64,000 nt of DNA, taken from contig JAPYKE020000037.1 of assembly GCA_028554795.2 (NCBI GenBank), forward strand, positions 6,430,001 through 6,494,000, written 5' to 3'. Below the pieces are notes generated by a model. That model saw only the letters and a list, made by a program, of their open reading frames with translations, was not told the origin of the DNA and did not search any database. Shown here one piece after another: positions 12,051 to 32,093 of this stretch. Each line of letters opens with the position of its first letter. Positions within the stretch are counted from its first letter, which is position 1. Position numbers and translations under genes: made by a program. Origin of the DNA: Sinohyriopsis cumingii (Eukaryota > Mollusca > Bivalvia > Unionida > Unionidae).

Positions 12051-12976
12051 CCCCTTAATTTTCATGCACCCTCAAGCCATAAAAATAATTAATGCTATCA
12101 TATTTTTTCATGCACAAAATTTAATAATTTTTTGGTCATCCTATTATTTTTGTACATAAAATGATCTAATGTGAAGATTTACTTTTGCCAAAGTGATAAA
12201 AAAAGTACGGCATTTTAAATTTTACAACTAAGAATAAGAGATAAAATCATTGTTTTAGTTGTATTTTTTTTTTTTAAATGCCGATGTATCACTTAGATAC
12301 GCAAGACGACAAATTTATTCTTTGCCGAGCATATTTGGTATAATCCCATATGAGAAATATAACTATTTGTTTCCTCAGTGAAACACAAACGCGAATTATG
12401 TTATCTTCTCATAAATGTGTATTCGAGGTATCTAATAATAAAAAAAAAATATAAGAAAATAAAGAAATATTCACCAATTGTAAGTTTGTAGAAAGCCCTT
12501 TGCTCAGCTTACATCGAAAATGGTAATCAATTGTTTTGTTAACTGAAAATCTATGCACATTCATTTTATTGCCCTTCGTCTTTTGTATTGGCGAGAAAAT
12601 ATAATGATTGATGTAATTGTTCTGTTGTCCTTACAATATATACCGCTATTCATTAACAGCTGGACGTCGTTAATGAGCATTCTTGATTACATTTGGTGTA
12701 ACAAACAAATGCATGCATTTAAAAATGAGGTCAGAAGCCATTTGAGTTTATTTATCCACTAAAAATCACAGTAAAGGAAGACGCGAAGACTACAGACAAT
12801 TGGGCAATTAATCTTATTGTCTCAATATAGTAATGCAGTAAAAACTATAAAAACCCAGTTAGTTTTAATCTTAGATGCAAAAGTCACTGACTCCATGAGT
12901 TTGATTTATATATAGGTAATATCTTAAAAGATCTTGGTCTGTTCGTGTTTTGGCATATCTTCATTATTAAGTTTCT

Positions 12977-14592
12977 TCATACCCCTGCCAGAGGGAGAGA
13001 CTTTTATCCCACTACCACCTAAATGCACTGAACCACCAAACAAAAGGCAGAAAATTGAACCTAGACAGACCAGAAAAGACAAAGGTGAAGCCCATCACCT
13101 GTTTGTTACTTCAGTTACTGGGATCGTCAATGTAAAAGATGATGCTGAACTGCACAAATCAAATATTGATGCAGCAGGTAATGCCATCATACCAAAAGAT
13201 ACTATTAAAAAGGTGCTCATTGTTGCTGAAAATTTTCCTGAGCCTGCAGTAGACAAGCTGGACTACAGCAAAGATATGAGGGATATAAGCCAGTTTCCTG
13301 GTACGGCAAAGTCACCAGTAAGAGGAATGTATATGAAATGGGACATTAACATAAAATAAGAATTGTTGAGGAGGCAACACTTTGTGGAATTAGGTCCATA
13401 GCTGCAAAGTTCCACATTGCACCAAATACATGATCAAGCTGGATGAAAGTGGATTTTTTGAAAAATATTCAAAGGACAAAGAAAGGATCTATCCCAGGTG
13501 CTGGCCCACTCTTGATGTATTCACAGGAGAAGGAGCAGGAAATTTTTTCCTGGTTACTGTGTGCAGGACACTCACATGCCTGTAACAATTGAGATATTAC
13601 AGAATTATGCTACCGCAGTTATTCAGGAGGAAAATCTAAAGTTTCAGGTCTCAAGAGTATGGGTTGATGGAATTTTCAAGCGAAATGGACTTGTACTGAG
13701 ATGTAGAACTTCAATATCACAAAAACTACCTTGAGACCTAGAGGAAAAAATAGACTGCTTTACCAGATATGTAAGAAGGCTGCGGGAGGATGAGGAATTT
13801 GATAAACATTTAGTTGGAAATATGGACAAAACACCAATGTATTTCAATTTGGTTCCAGGGAAGATAATTGATAAAGTTAGAACGAGAGAGGTGTGTTAAT
13901 GTAGAGGTACCGACACTGACAAGTGCCATTTAACTTGTGTATCGACATGCCTGGCATCTGGTGACTTGTTGCCACCCATGATAATCTTTCGGGGAAAAAG
14001 AAACTTAAAAAATCTAAAAATCCCTAAGGGAGTTGTAGTGAAAGTTCAACATAAAGCATGGATGGATGAACACCTAATGTTGGATCATATGGATGAAGTT
14101 TGAAAAGTACACACAAAACGTGCACCTTCTCTCCTCGTGCTGGATTCATTCCATGGCTGATGGAGTGAAAATCTCCATGAAAAAATCCAGAACAACAATG
14201 GCAGTAATCCCCTATGGATGCACAAGTAAACTACAGCTACTGGATGTATATCTAAATAAGTCTTTCAAGGACTGCTGCAGAAAAAATGGTCAATATACAT
14301 GAAAGACCAGGCTTCCAAAAATATTGCAACCAAGGAAGCTTGTGAGGAGGCAACCGAAAAAGATGCAGCCCCTTCAAAGCAGCAGATGATTGACTGGATT
14401 TTTGCAGCCAATGAAGAATTAAAGAAGAAAAAGGACATGATAATCAGTAGCTTCAAAGTTACTGGTCTTTTAGATGTAATAAATGGTAGAGAGGACCACT
14501 CCAAAAGGAGTGACAATGCAGCTCCATTGCAAAGTCTTTCTAGTGATAAAGAATATGAATGGTTTGAGGGTTTTGAGCTGGAAGACTTGTAA
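12977..14592 (+). pseudogene. degraded pogo/Tigger-type (Tc1/mariner superfamily) transposase
   Basis: Several frames together give the layout of a pogo/Tigger transposase. An N-terminal helix-turn-helix region (CGIRSIAAKFHIAPNTIR, ~13385-13435) is followed by a CENP-B-like part (VTIEILQNYATAVIQEENLK and VSRVWVDGIFKRNGL). The DDE core has GNMDKTPMYF (first Asp ~13825), LPPMIIFRGKRNLKN, PKGVVVKVQHKAWMDEHLM, LVLDSF (~14140) and TSKLQLLDVYLNKSFKD (third Asp ~14237). A Lys/Glu-rich tail ends with TAA at 14590-14592. At least three frame changes and an in-frame stop show it is dead. It sits in the 8.4-kb CAD intron in the same orientation as CAD. Confidence 0.88.
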
Positions 14593-23639: not shown

Positions 23640-23967
23640 CACTGCTTCGGTTGTCTAGTGGTAATAGCGTCCGCCTTGGAAGCGGAATGTCGTGGGTTTG
23701 ATCCCCGCCGAGTCATACCAAAGAATTACAAAAATGATACTAACAGCTGCCTCACTTGGCGCTCAGCATTACGATTTTAGTGTTAGGACTGGTCGGCCTG
23801 GTGTTAAGATATGTGACTGGGTGGGACATCATGCTACATGTCTGCGGCATGATACCCCATTGCTAGACATCACTATAAACTGTCACACTTCAGACATCGT
23901 AGCAATATGCCTGAAAAATTCTTAAAGCTATGTTACAAATTCAAATCACACACACACACACACACAC
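23640..23967 (+). mobile_element. tRNA-derived SINE, family B, full copy with 12-bp target duplication
   Basis: A well-preserved tRNA-like head (ttgtctagtggtaatagcg, anticodon-arm-like tccgccttggaagcgga, box B gtgggtttgatcccc) is followed by the family body and a (ca)n tail. Direct repeats tcagtcgcccag occur at 23628-23639 and 23968-23979. The head keeps its cloverleaf pairings better than the other two copies, but it continues into SINE body and has no mature tRNA 3' end, so I do not call it a tRNA gene. Confidence 0.93.
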
Positions 23968-26279: not shown

Positions 26280-26375
26280 TACAGGGGCTCAAATCATTGC
26301 TTAAAATTGACCTGTCATGTACTATATAGTACATGTATGACATGTCAAGTTTAAGCAACGATACAAGCCCCTGTG
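26280..26375. mobile_element. 96-bp palindromic hAT-like mini-element with 8-bp target duplication
   Basis: acaggggctcaaatcattgc pairs with gcaacgatacaagcccctgt, and the match continues to the centre near tactatatagta, making a nearly complete hairpin with arms of about 45 nt. The flanks ttctcggg (26272-26279) and ttctaggg (26376-26383) are an 8-bp duplication with one mismatch, the size produced by hAT transposases. It lies immediately before the BED finger sequence. Confidence 0.75.
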
Positions 26376-27247
26376 TTCTAGGGCAGCATCATGCTCATTG
26401 CAGTCTGTGCAGAAACGATATTAATATTGGGCATAGTGGTAAATTTGATGTGGAGAAACACTTGAAAACAAAGAAACGCATTAAATTAGCTCGTCTTAAA
26501 AACTCCAGTTCTAAGGTAAATTCTTATTTACAGCAGAACTAAGGTGCGGACATGACTTATAAATGCAGAGGTGTTGTTTACTGAGTTCTTAATAGAAAGA
26601 TAATGAAGATCTTGCTATTGGTGCAGAAACAAGAGAATTCGTAGAACACAATTCTACTCTAGTTGTGAAGGTGTTTTATGATAATGTTAGAGATTATTAT
26701 GCTACAGCCTGTGATTACATGCTCCAGAAATTCCCCTATGGAGATGAAGTGCTTTTAAATACTGCAGTTGCTGATGTAAATGAGACAGTCAAAAAGCTTC
26801 AAAAGTGTTAGATTCTTTGTCAAGAGATATCCTTTACTATTGCCATCCTTGTCTACCGTGGATCATCTGGAAGGAGAATTACTGAAGTTTCAAGTTGGGA
26901 TTCTACCTGACAATATACTTAATGCAGATAGAGTTGATGTGCAGTGGCACCTTATTTCCCCGCTAAAAGACACAATCACTGGAAGATATAAATTTCCTCT
27001 TCTTTGTCAGGTTATGAAAGGAATATTGGTTCTTTACTATTCTAATGCTGACTATGAGAGATTGTTCAGTTTTGTTAGCAAAAATAAAAGTGGATTCAGA
27101 TCCAGGCTCAGTAACCCAGTACTTTGTGCTCTACTGGTGTGCAAAACATTCATGGTCTCAGCTGGTACAAAGTGCTTTAAAATGCAACATGAAAATCTTT
27201 TGCTTTCTATAGCTAAAAGTGCTTCATATGAAAACTTGAAGCAGTAA
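26376..27247 (+). pseudogene. hAT transposase remnant: BED finger plus C-terminal dimerisation region
   Basis: First frame (to 26542): QHHAHCSLCRNDINIGHSGK then FDVEKHLKTKKRI, a BED-type zinc finger with both Cys and the first His; the expected last His is Arg. A second frame (26608-26810) gives NSTLVVKVFYDNVRDYYATA and DYMLQKFPYGDEVLLNTAVA. A third frame (26806-27247) gives FPLLCQVMKGILVLYYSNAD, YERLFSFV and GFRSRLSNPVLCALLVCK, the hAT C-terminal dimerisation motif. The usual ~300-residue catalytic middle is missing, and there are two frame changes, so it is an internally deleted, dead copy in the CAD intron. Confidence 0.85.
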
Positions 27248-28234: not shown

Positions 28235-28390
28235 ATCACTATGGTTGGTGACTTGAAGAATGGTCGTACAGTTCATTCCCTGGCTCGTCTCCTTACTCAC
28301 TATCGAGTAAACTTTAAATATGTGTCTCCACCTTCTCTAAAGATGCCAGAAGATGTGAAGTGCTATGTGGCAGAGAGAGGAATCAGACAG
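28235..28390 (+). CDS. CAD: CAD exon: start of ATCase aspartate-binding lobe
   Basis: Acceptor aactttag. The 52 codons read [40 protein letters not shown] and [23 protein letters not shown] contains the Arg equivalent to Arg167 of bacterial ATCase, which binds aspartate. The donor is gtacatg at 28391, a weaker site than most in this gene (gtac rather than gtaa). It is followed by the 807-nt intron that contains ten copies of the next exon's acceptor. Confidence 0.97.
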
Positions 28391-28605
28391 GTACATGAAC
28401 CTATCAGTTTTAATGTGCATGATTTTTCCACTACTGCTGAATGGAAATTAAACTGCAGTAGCAAACACAGCAGGTGGAGTTCATCATATCTGTAAACAGT
28501 GAATTAGTTGATTGTATATAAAACAATAAAAATGAATTTCAGATGGTAATACTTTCTGTTAAGCAGATATGGATTGGTAATTCCTGCAATGCAAATATAA
28601 TTTTT

Positions 28606-28678
28606 TGAATGGAGGAATGCACCAGTCTGCAAGAAGCAAAAATCTTTAATCATGTGGAATGTAACAGCTTTGAAAGGG

Positions 28679-28757
<79 letters not shown>

Positions 28758-29197
28758 TAATAATAATAATAATAATAATTTTATAATCAGGTGGAATGTA
28801 ACAGCCTTGAAGAGGCAATATATATAATTTTTTATTTAATTGGGTGGAATGTACCAATCTGGAAGAACCAATATATATACATTTTTATTTAATTAGGAGG
28901 AATATACCAGTCTAGAAGAATCAATATAATATATAATTTTTTATTTAATCAGGAGGAATGTATCAGTCTGGAATATAATTTTTATTTAATCAGGAGGAAT
29001 GTATCAGTCTGGAAGAGGCAATATATATAATTTTTATTTGATCAGGAGGAATGTATCAGTCTGAAAGAGGCAATATATATAACTTATTTAATCAGGAGTA
29101 ATGTATCAATCTGGAAGAGGCAATATATATAATTTTTATTTAATCAGGAGGAATGTATCAGTCTGAAAGGCAATATGTATAATTTTTATTTAATCAG
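28606..29197 (+). repeat. array of about ten copies of the next CAD exon's 3' splice site
   Basis: Units of about 41-56 bp consist of a T-rich tract, the AG and about 33 nt that match the first codons of the exon at 29198 (gaggaatgtatcaatctgga type), then atatataattttta. Intact AGs followed by the exon-like start occur at 28791 (variant), 28897, 28953, 28994, 29046, 29096 and 29148; the authentic exon begins at 29198. The first copies, near 28606 and 28655, are the most diverged, and a (TA)n expansion sits at 28680-28751. Copies nearest the exon are the most similar to it. Confidence 0.93.
28680..28751. repeat. (TA)n microsatellite inside the acceptor array
   Basis: A run of about 36 TA dinucleotides lies within one of the acceptor-copy units, which normally end in atatata. 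It probably expanded from that short run. A (taa)n stretch follows. Confidence 0.97.
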
Positions 29198-29299
29198 GAG
29201 GAATGTATCAATCTGGAAGAGGCAATATCAGATACAGATGTTCTCTACATGACTCGCATACAAAGGGAAAGATTCACTTCCATGGAAGAATATAACAAG
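29198..29299 (+). CDS. CAD: CAD exon: ATCase aspartate lobe, DVLYMTRIQ region
   Basis: The exon reads [20 protein letters not shown] then [14 protein letters not shown] in phase 0, exactly the ATCase segment expected after GIRQ. The Arg of MTRIQRERF corresponds to Arg229 of bacterial ATCase (aspartate binding). The start at 29198 is the only one of the tandem acceptors that leads into the complete conserved exon and keeps the frame. If the neighbouring acceptor (start 29148) were used, 50 nt would be added and the reading frame would reach TGA within the exon. The donor is gtatgct. Confidence 0.96.
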
Positions 29300-31900
29300 G
29301 TATGCTGGTGTTGTGGGGCACATGTACATGGTTGCTGCCAGCTGGTGCAAATGTATTGGTCATGAAGAATTGACAATTATGCAGTTGTAGTTAGCTATGT
29401 GCAAGAACTCATGCAGTGGAACCACCTCCACTACTTCCAGCCCCCACCCCCAATTAAAGCAATAAAACATTGATTTTGATGGATTAGAGGTGTACATAAT
29501 AGTCAATGAATGGTAGTTTGTGAAGTCTTTTGGAGATGCAGAAATGTGAAAATTACAGTTTTTGACAAATGTATGCCCATTTACTTGTGAACCAAGTTTT
29601 TATTTCATTGTTTTTTCACCATGCCATATGTACATGTTAAATTGGAAATGCAGCCATTGTAGTATATATATCAAAATTATTTTTTGCATTCCCTGTAGCA
29701 AAATCATCATTTTAGATATAATTAATCCTTGAGAGTTGTAGAGATGCTATGTACCAGTGAATGCCAAACGGACTTGATTTTTATTTTTCACATCTTCCTT
29801 GCAGCAATCAAACTGATTTTCTAGTAAAAGGTTATATATATGCATTTCTTTTATAGTCACTAAATAGATGAATTTGGTTGCCACATGTGGACCACCTTAA
29901 TTGTTTAAAAATTGCTCCAATTTTAGCCAAAAAATGGTTATTTCTGTAGCCAAATGTGCCATGAATGAGTACCTATGATGTCCTATCAAATAATTTGTAA
30001 AAATCAATTGCAGTTTTAAGTTTATTTCTTTTTTGAATTTTTGGGCCTATGAGAGGCCTTATAGCTCTTTTTGGTGAACCTCATTATTTGTCCTTCTTTT
30101 CTGAACTCTTTAGTTTATGGAGGTTGTGGTTGAAGCATTTCCAGTAGGTATTGCCGCGGGTCGATATTTTTACTGAATTAAGTGAATGGAATTATATTTA
30201 TTGTTATGAGCACACTTTCCAATTAAATGCCCTAAATAAATATGCGATAAAACGATTAACAGATAATTATTAGGCATAATGGATACAATAATATATCAAA
30301 GGGTATGTGTCTAACATGTACTGATAATTGTAACTGAAATTTTAAAAATGTAGAAGAAGCTAATTCGGAAATAATAAAATGGTGAAATACAGTTCCTTGA
30401 CAAATCAACAACAGTAATAACACAAATAAAAAGAGAAAAAATGAATTAAAGTGAATTTTGAAAGTAGTATTTTATTTGATTAAGCCAATTATGAAACTTC
30501 TTTCATGTTTATGTTCTATATCATACAGAGTGCTTAGGATATCCCTCTGATGATAAAGTCCTTCTGTTAAACTTTTTTAATTAAACAAATCACTTGTAAA
30601 TAAAATTTGTGTATTATATTTCTCTTGCGTTAAAGCTGTGTACTATTCAGCAGTGAACATTATTTCACAAGTTACCCCATTTGCATTTAGTGATTGCATA
30701 CTTTCTCAAATGTGCACTTTTCATCAGTTATTAGCATCAGTACTTAAAATTCTAATATCTACTGTGCATTTCAAACATCTATATATGCATCGGATAATTA
30801 AAAGCATCTTTTGATCTTTTTTAATTAAAAAATTGAAAACAAAAATAATTTCAGTTTGTTTCTATTGTGTTCCATTTTTCCATTACAAGTTTGATTTCTT
30901 TTATGTTCCGCCTTTTCATTGCGTATTTTAGTCATACCAATCTATAATCCATTGATCATGTTCCATGGCAACTTGACCATTTATCAAATTTCTTTCTCAA
31001 ATAGTAAACCATATACTGCTTTTCTGTGGGCACTTCTGTCATTTAGCTGTTAAGCTATCAGCCTTGGAAGTGTCCTGTCGACAACCATCCGAACATTTTA
31101 AAGGCTTTTATGTGTTTCTCTATCCCCCATAGTTGTTTTTCTGTACCAAAAAGAACTAGGAAGGAAAAGTTTTTTTTTTCTTCTGGGGTTGCTATTTGCA
31201 TTTAATTATTTTACATTGGGTCATACACATGAGGACCCAGAAGCTGGCCCCTTATTTTCCTTCCCAGTTTATTTTTTAATTACATATACTTCCATCATGG
31301 TCCTTATATATTAGTAATCTTGGCCAAGGATCAGTCTGATGCCCTGTGCGTGTTATATGTTTATACTGTATTGTTTTAATCATGCTATATCTTGTTTGTG
31401 TTAGGACTGGCCTTTGTCTATACTTGAATTACTTTTTTAAAATGTTTTTATATACATATGAAAAAGAAAAAAATAGTGTGAGATGTAATAGTTTTATAAA
31501 ACTGTGTTGTGTTAGTTCTCCAGTCTCGGTCTGGTAATTCTTTTCATAGAGATATTTTCTTTATTGCATTGCTGCATTGAAGTATTTGCTGGCTCCTTTC
31601 CTCCATGTGAATTGTATAATGTGAAATTGGTTAAAACATCACTCAGCACTGCATGATGGTTAACATAACTACGTACAAAACACTTGTCAAAGGCGGATTC
31701 CTTAGTGACAATAGCAGTTATTCTTGTCCAGCAGCGTAATTACCTACTAGAAGTAGTAAATACCTTAAATGAGAGGGAGATGATGAGGTTACCAAAATCA
31801 TCATTAGTACCTAACCCTTTTCAGAATTTACTGTACATGTATAAAAATGTTAAATGAGAAAATATGATTGTATTTTTCTTGTGCTATGCATTGTCTGTGA
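29300..31900. other. CAD intron sequence without recognised features
   Basis: AT-rich. No tandem array, SINE or conserved frame is recognised until the pseudo-exon at 31910. Confidence 0.5.
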
Positions 31901-31909
31901 TATGTTTAG

Positions 31910-31975
31910 GTTAGTTGATATTGTAGTTCCAGTGTTAATGACTAGATCCAAGAAGAAAATGGCTTGACATGCATT
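31910..31975 (+). pseudogene. decayed duplicate of the following CAD exon
   Basis: Eighty-nine bases upstream of the exon at 31999 lies a copy of its acceptor and first ~65 nt: gttagttgatattg versus gtgtgtggatattg, agtgttaatgac versus agagttaatgac, and aagaagaaaatgg in both. The AG at 31908-31909 is preserved (tatgtttag). In the CAD frame the third codon is TGA and the rest has small indels, so it cannot replace the exon. It is a local tandem duplication of an exon border. Confidence 0.87.
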
Positions 31976-31998: not shown

Positions 31999-32093
31999 GT
32001 GTGTGGATATTGTATTGTCACTCCAGAGTTAATGACCAGAGCAAAGAAGAAAATGGTTGTCATGCATCCATTGCCTAGACTTAACGAAATCAG
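31999..32093 (+). CDS. CAD: CAD exon: ATCase HPLPR motif
   Basis: Acceptor gtattttag; the exon reads [20 protein letters not shown] then [11 protein letters not shown] and two bases of the next codon. HPLPR (residues ~304-308 of the stretch here) contributes the Pro/Leu backbone contacts to the substrates in ATCase. The donor is gtaatga at 32094, phase 2; the split codon completes as Ser with the last exon. Confidence 0.97.

Follow-up and report, generated by a model that had tools for sequence, protein, structure and literature searches.

Ten decoys, each a copy of the acceptor and of about 31 nt of the next exon, precede the real exon at 29198 to 29299 in the CAD gene of the freshwater mussel Sinohyriopsis cumingii. 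This array is a real, clear and large mirage minisatellite outside the lancelets, and most likely a neutral one. The name mirage is said to have been given by Canestro et al. in 2002. In amphioxus, such repeats spanning exon-intron boundaries are described for Adh3, for the globins BflGb6 and BflGb9 and for troponin C, and repeats similar to mirages are described for PGBD5 (cited passages of PMC3087553 and PMC3902484).

Results

The CAD gene is intact

The window, i.e., the whole stretch of 64,000 nucleotides that was analysed, corresponds to C37:6430001-6494000 of a 2.90-Gb genome assembled in 1138 contigs. Window coordinates are used below unless the contig is named, and the CAD exons, the array intron and the mirage units listed in the window lie on the plus strand. 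The exons were mapped on the window plus flanks with the CAD protein of Potamilus streckersoni (P0242, 91% against the mussel ATCase query). The gene was recovered whole, with 43 exons and 42 introns, every intron being of the GT-AG type, and it spans -119826 to 36066 (C37:6310174-6466066). The joined exons measure 6684 nt and form an open frame of 2227 codons. The sole stop stands at the very end, and thus the gene is intact. The exon upstream of the array (28235 to 28390, ITMVGDL...RGIRQ, donor CAG/GTACAT at 28391) matched the ATCase domain of CAD in PDB 5g1n. This match, together with the complete 43-exon frame, upheld the gene identity given in an earlier note that had been made from the letters of the window. 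A Pfam search of the same genome for OTCace gave no match, the known CAD exons included, single exons probably being too short; this negative result therefore does not bear on paralogues. The array lies in an intron of 807 nt (28391 to 29197). The real exon behind it measures 102 nt, ends at the donor AAG/GTATGC and is followed by an intron of 2699 nt.

Other elements were also observed in the CAD introns. Transposase-like broken frames occur at 12928-14592 and 26330-27244, which we take to be pogo/Tigger-like and hAT-like, respectively. A weak tRNA match at 23644-23715 (30.4 bits versus a gathering score of 29) is possibly a tRNA-derived SINE.

Ten tandem units cross the intron/exon boundary

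Counting the ten decoy units and the real unit, the array extends from 28606 to 29228, with an (AT)n interruption at 28681-28759. Its tandem units lie across an intron/exon boundary, as is characteristic of mirages, and the repeat makes up about half or more of the intron. Cutting the sequence at exon-like starts and running repeat-finding tools recovered the same array, which confirmed the ten tandem copies of an acceptor plus exon start that the earlier note had reported before the CAD exon. Each repeat unit joins the last ~20 nt of the intron to the first ~31 nt of the exon. The unit had thus been described correctly as acceptor plus exon start, but the 33 nt then assigned to the exon part were slightly too long, as the best blast matches have lengths of 31 nt (97%) and 27 nt (100%), with E 4e-11. 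The spacings between successive units are 42, 137, 53, 53, 56, 41, 52, 50, 52 and 50 nt; the range of 41-56 claimed previously holds for all steps except that of 137, which contains the (AT)n run.

The AG was retained in seven of the ten decoys. It was lost at the junction in decoy 1 (28612 to 28642), decoy 2 (28654 to 28684) and decoy 4 (28844 to 28874, reading TGG). Decoy 3 (28791 to 28821) keeps a CAG (CAG/GTGG), and decoy 5 (28897 to 28927) keeps a TAG and encodes EEYTSLEESI followed by a stop. Decoy 6 (28953 to 28973) retains its CAG with a shortened exon part, while decoy 7 (28994 to 29024) matches the real acceptor at every one of the 20 nt before and the 13 nt after the junction. A CAG is also kept in decoy 8 (29046 to 29076) and in decoy 9 (29096 to 29126), the latter starting with GAG TAA, so that its second codon is a stop. 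Decoy 10, the nearest (29148 to 29175), equals the real acceptor from -20 to +13. The claim of at least six AG-keeping units was correct for the six named, to which 28791 is now added. According to the reading of the frame, use of 29148 would add 50 nt and lead to a TGA within the exon, also as claimed.

CAD carries two further mirages

Three mirage cases were found in CAD, each at an acceptor. The second array lies outside the window (C37:6404878-6405656 and 6406934-6407148), precedes the exon at -22891 to -22727 (C37:6407109-6407273) and is unrelated to the first. Its 55-bp unit combines the last ~16 nt of the intron, AG included, with the first ~39 nt of the exon. The array contains at least 16 decoys, 15 of which were identified by one pattern (12 keep the AG) and one by a looser pattern (AG kept). 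Thus, in both arrays many units, yet not all, retain the splice signal (7/10 and 12/15), which is another property of mirages. The second array is interrupted by a stretch of ~1.3 kb, whose ends show weak inverted similarity, and it contains a 381-bp higher-order repeat (1.9 copies, 96% match). Of the 171 AGs inside or at the end of its intron, a stop follows from the use of 170, the real acceptor being the sole exception.

In the third case, a two-unit mirage stands before the exon at 31999 to 32093, with one decoy copy of the acceptor and exon start at 31885-31974 (TTTAG/GTTAG, first base 31910). It is not a TRF array and was detected by blast and alignment; the exon scored 81 against the upstream stretch, the maximum in 1000 single-base shuffles being 42. 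Nearly all residues of this exon are missing from the Sinanodonta woodiana CAD protein model (P0243), which could be a gene-model error.

The 156-kb CAD gene contains 56 arrays with a period of at least 10, and two of them touch exons. Under random placement, 7.2 would be expected to do so (P(<=2) 0.02), and crossing an exon edge is therefore probably harmful in general, the CAD mirages probably being tolerated exceptions. When array units were compared with 60 nt of the neighbouring exon edges (228 comparisons), no other convincing mirage was found in CAD, and high scores were obtained solely for introns 39 and 28 (z 10-16). A candidate at the donor 20302 (z 4.4; score of 22 versus a highest score of 19 in 100 shuffles) was rejected, and the remaining exon blast hit in the gene, a single 14-nt match, was regarded as chance. 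The CAD minisatellites were also observed to be biased towards the acceptor end of introns, with 13 of 56 in the last tenth and one in the first tenth; ten arrays lie within 200 nt of an acceptor and three within that distance of a donor. The p values for this bias (0.003 and 0.09) come from tests picked after seeing the data.

The array was copied from the exon start and turns over

The repeated codons belong to the CAD protein of relatives, reading RQEECISLEEALSD in Potamilus, with a counterpart in Sinanodonta. Since the copied codons are shared with the CAD protein of relatives, the exon is the source of the array. As in mirages, the unit of the first array was derived from a functional boundary of the host gene. 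Its divergence from the real unit, measured over 32 ungapped columns (14 intron, 18 exon), becomes larger the farther a unit lies from the exon (Spearman 0.84, p 0.0025, n=10), being 0.03-0.09 in the five nearest decoys and 0.34 in the two farthest. Such a gradient is expected if the array grows at the exon end. The repeat turnover typical of mirages is evident from the near-identical 3' units of this array and from the higher-order repeat of the second.

Eight of the ten decoys encode serine where the real exon has asparagine. Serine at that position was also present in Potamilus and in 79 of 104 readable CAD proteins (120 tried), while decoy 28897 carries YT, like Sinanodonta. The array thus preserves earlier or alternative versions of the exon start. 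Substitutions at codon positions 1, 2 and 3 numbered 2, 17 and 6 in the exon-like parts of the first array, mostly from the shared AGT/AAT difference, and 57, 41 and 39 in the second array (p 0.119); we base no conclusion on these counts.

The array may also act as a source of exon change, the decoys overwriting the first ten codons and the acceptor by concerted evolution, an idea that is compatible with a neutral mirage minisatellite. The closeness of the five nearest units to the real one, set against the two farthest, and the agreement of the serine and YT residues with other species would fit such exchange. However, the pattern of the first array is also explicable by recent outward copying alone. 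For the second array, all 15 measured decoys differ from the real exon by 0.17-0.28 and the gradient is absent (Spearman -0.05, n=15); the exon therefore lies outside homogenisation there, and exchange with the exon is not general. We consider overwriting of the exon rather unlikely.

The open frame is reached through the real acceptor

No insert at the Q/EE junction was found among the 60 listed of 120 relatives or in the models of the unionids Potamilus and Sinanodonta. In two of these 60 relatives, a single additional residue stands a few residues upstream of the junction, but not at the junction itself. The CAD protein of PDB 5g1n likewise continues across Q/EE with nothing inserted. Because the relatives lack an insert and the decoys would add sequence and a stop, 29198 is predicted to supply functional CAD and, judged by homology, must be the productive acceptor of the intron. 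Read from any of the 48 other AGs of the intron, the frame meets a stop before 29299, and the same holds for every decoy. Stops are easily reached in AT-rich sequence, and thus the 48/48 result is weak evidence for regulation by poison acceptors.

A matrix built from the remaining 41 CAD acceptors gave the same score (7.77) to 29198, 29148 and 28994. Several acceptors are thus equal in local sequence, in line with the almost identical row that the earlier note had pointed out. The score was 7.64 for 28953 and 5.13-6.59 for the other four AG-keeping decoys. The acceptor at 29198 is of middling strength, ranking 29 of 42. In eight of the 42 CAD introns, the array intron among them, the final 600 nt include one or more AGs that score as high as the true acceptor; here, unusually, the competing sites were copied from the acceptor itself, along with the exon start. 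The earlier note had also remarked that essential enzymes rarely carry so ambiguous an acceptor; within CAD, two more cases occur.

Exons starting at the AG-keeping decoys would span 152 to 509 nt. Their extensions have a GC content of 0.27 (AT-rich repeat DNA) versus 0.38 in the real exon, and 29198 would be favoured because the decoy exons are longer and run through AT-rich DNA. As described in the cited part of PMC9225289, exon definition favours the sites closest across the exon, and intron definition those nearest across the intron; with long introns on either side, 3' sites of equal strength showed a reduced rather than abolished preference for the upstream one. On this analogy, some decoy use in CAD splicing is to be expected and is likely, and proximity alone would be insufficient for a strict choice of 29198. 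We infer that 29198 is used nearly exclusively. By analogy with amphioxus, the remaining decoy use would be harmless to the mussel.

Selection for a regulatory role is not seen

The earlier note had raised the idea that the array tunes CAD output. Decoys would then divert transcripts to unproductive splicing and decay, and the length of the array would set the CAD dosage. Several observations are consistent with such poison acceptors: the two decoys that equal the real acceptor from -20 to +13, the five others with scores of 5.1 to 7.6, the premature stop upon use of any decoy (48/48 AGs) and the two additional acceptor mirages of CAD. The C. elegans minisatellite CeRep25B was reported to be enriched near multiply alternatively spliced regions; in the cited part of that report it is not described as a copy of an exon boundary (PMC4039745). 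However, the decoy AGs are not clearly better or worse conserved than the adjacent bases, one or the other of which would be expected if the decoys aided or impaired splicing. In the first array, agreement of the decoys with the real site is 0.8 and 0.9 in the two AG columns, versus a mean of 0.83 (intron) and 0.86 (exon) in the neighbouring columns. The corresponding values for the second array are 1.0 and 0.8 for the AG and 0.81 and 0.77 for the neighbours. Conservation of the decoy signals beyond their neighbours was not seen in this within-array comparison of low power (10 and 15 decoys, non-independent units). With the AG columns retained to about the same degree as the flanking ones, there is at this power no sign of selection for regulation, and tuning of CAD output by the array is not supported. 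In addition, the AG was lost in 3/10 and 3/15 decoys, and the amphioxus mirages are reported, in the cited text, without disturbance of splicing (PMC3087553). We regard control of dosage by the array as very unlikely. It is less likely still that the three independent acceptor mirages of CAD form a set of length-variable splice rheostats, with copy number setting the share of transcripts lost; if true, this would be a heritable, fast-mutating control of the nucleotide supply of the mussel.

False expansion of a short repeat by the assembly is highly improbable: the haplotype 1 mirage of amphioxus BflGb6 is reported to have seemed aberrantly assembled in the draft genome (PMC3087553, cited part), but the CAD units vary in length (41-56, the AT-rich gap aside) and in sequence, with a gradient, 264 kb contain zero Ns, and a DNA search, whose counts are lower bounds, matched the array at one place in the genome.

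Kinase exons of the same genome

A survey of kinases in the same genome with the PF00069 profile gave 130 matches, with 127 of 1227 candidates scored. Near-identical tandem copies and single-frame matches over most of the domain were left out. A sample of 29 exons was chosen by eye as exons of ordinary genes, eight further picks being left out. An acceptor mirage was found in 0/29 of these exons, a rough count because the ends of HMM matches are not exact exon ends. A short donor-side array was present in one of the 29 (L033, 1594-1689, 37 bp by 2.6 copies), in which the 5' splice site is repeated along with the last ~10 nt of the exon. The arrays of L038 and L039 were rejected as acceptor mirages, as they stop before the acceptor (judged by eye), and a 12-nt self match in L050 was regarded as chance. 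The ratio of 3/42 CAD acceptors to 0/29 kinase exons could hint at something particular to CAD; these numbers are too small for the gene to be called special.

Contigs C2, C193 and C603 contain dozens of near-identical kinase matches, arranged in tandem at steps of ~7.7 kb and mostly within a frame of 459 aa. The genome also includes two divergent mitochondrial COX1 genes, on contigs C807 and C1106. For the COX1 of one mitochondrial contig, the best hits were entries of Unionidae, with 97-98% identity. The same COX1 match occurs twice on C807, ~16 kb apart, perhaps because of a doubled circle. On C1106, an open frame of 410 aa precedes COX1 and presumably begins like cox2. In freshwater mussels, doubly uniparental inheritance is recognized by a pair of divergent mitochondrial genomes, of which one carries an extended cox2. 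The two divergent COX1 genes and the extended cox2-like frame thus suggest that the sequenced animal was probably a male unionid.

Discussion

The explanation that we favour, with good confidence, is a mirage minisatellite that arose as a neutral by-product of repeat growth and is tolerated via exon definition. The tandem repeat unit spans the 3' splice site of the CAD exon 29198-29299, and the array would have expanded upstream from this functional boundary by unequal exchange or slippage. The open CAD frame would be obtained solely via 29198, the copy that continues through the entire exon up to a 5' splice site. The decoys may be bypassed mainly since what follows them is AT-rich repeat DNA and not an entire exon. 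Their occasional use would lead to an early stop and probably to decay of the message, and the array as such is most likely neutral.

Like the amphioxus mirages, the CAD array consists of tandem units spanning a boundary, with the splice signal kept in many of them, though not in all. Length instability and homogenisation are described for the amphioxus repeats, and both 3' and 5' boundaries can be affected (cited passages of PMC3087553 and PMC3902484); the CAD cases differ in their mollusc host, in their number (three in one gene) and in being exclusively at acceptors. The BflGb6 mirage is reported with six and three units of 150-160 bp in two haplotypes (PMC3087553, cited part), whereas unit numbers are higher in CAD, with 10 in the first array and at least 16 in the second. 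For the amphioxus globins and Adh3, the results of the authors, including RT-PCR, suggest that regular splicing is undisturbed (PMC3087553, cited part). The amphioxus mirages thus come with RT-PCR and a comparison of haplotypes, while the CAD array is known from one genome assembly.

Other known systems share some of these properties. Intron gain by tandem duplication of AG/GT segments, as treated in the cited parts of PMC4974935 and PMC3087553, also involves duplication of a segment with a splice signal. In contrast, the CAD array makes no new intron; an old boundary was copied, and the copies are intronic. Competing alternative 3' splice sites likewise place multiple acceptors before a single exon, and when such sites are separated by more than ~12-20 nt, in most cases each has its own tract and is defined when the site is first recognized (PMC9225289, cited part). 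CAD differs from these in having eight near-identical acceptors (seven decoys and the real one), of which one keeps the frame. A literature search, with a coverage outside which most subscription papers lie, found no report of mirages outside the lancelets. The word mirage in PMC9912274 is the name of a transposon and is unrelated.

The CAD array extends the mirage phenomenon of lancelets to a mollusc, and it shows that one gene can be struck three times. It also provides a natural experiment, in which acceptors with identical local sequence compete before a single exon. RNA reads from CAD would reveal the weight of exon definition and position versus that of the splice-site sequence in the choice of the AG. 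Such reads would, in addition, gauge the waste that an essential gene tolerates.
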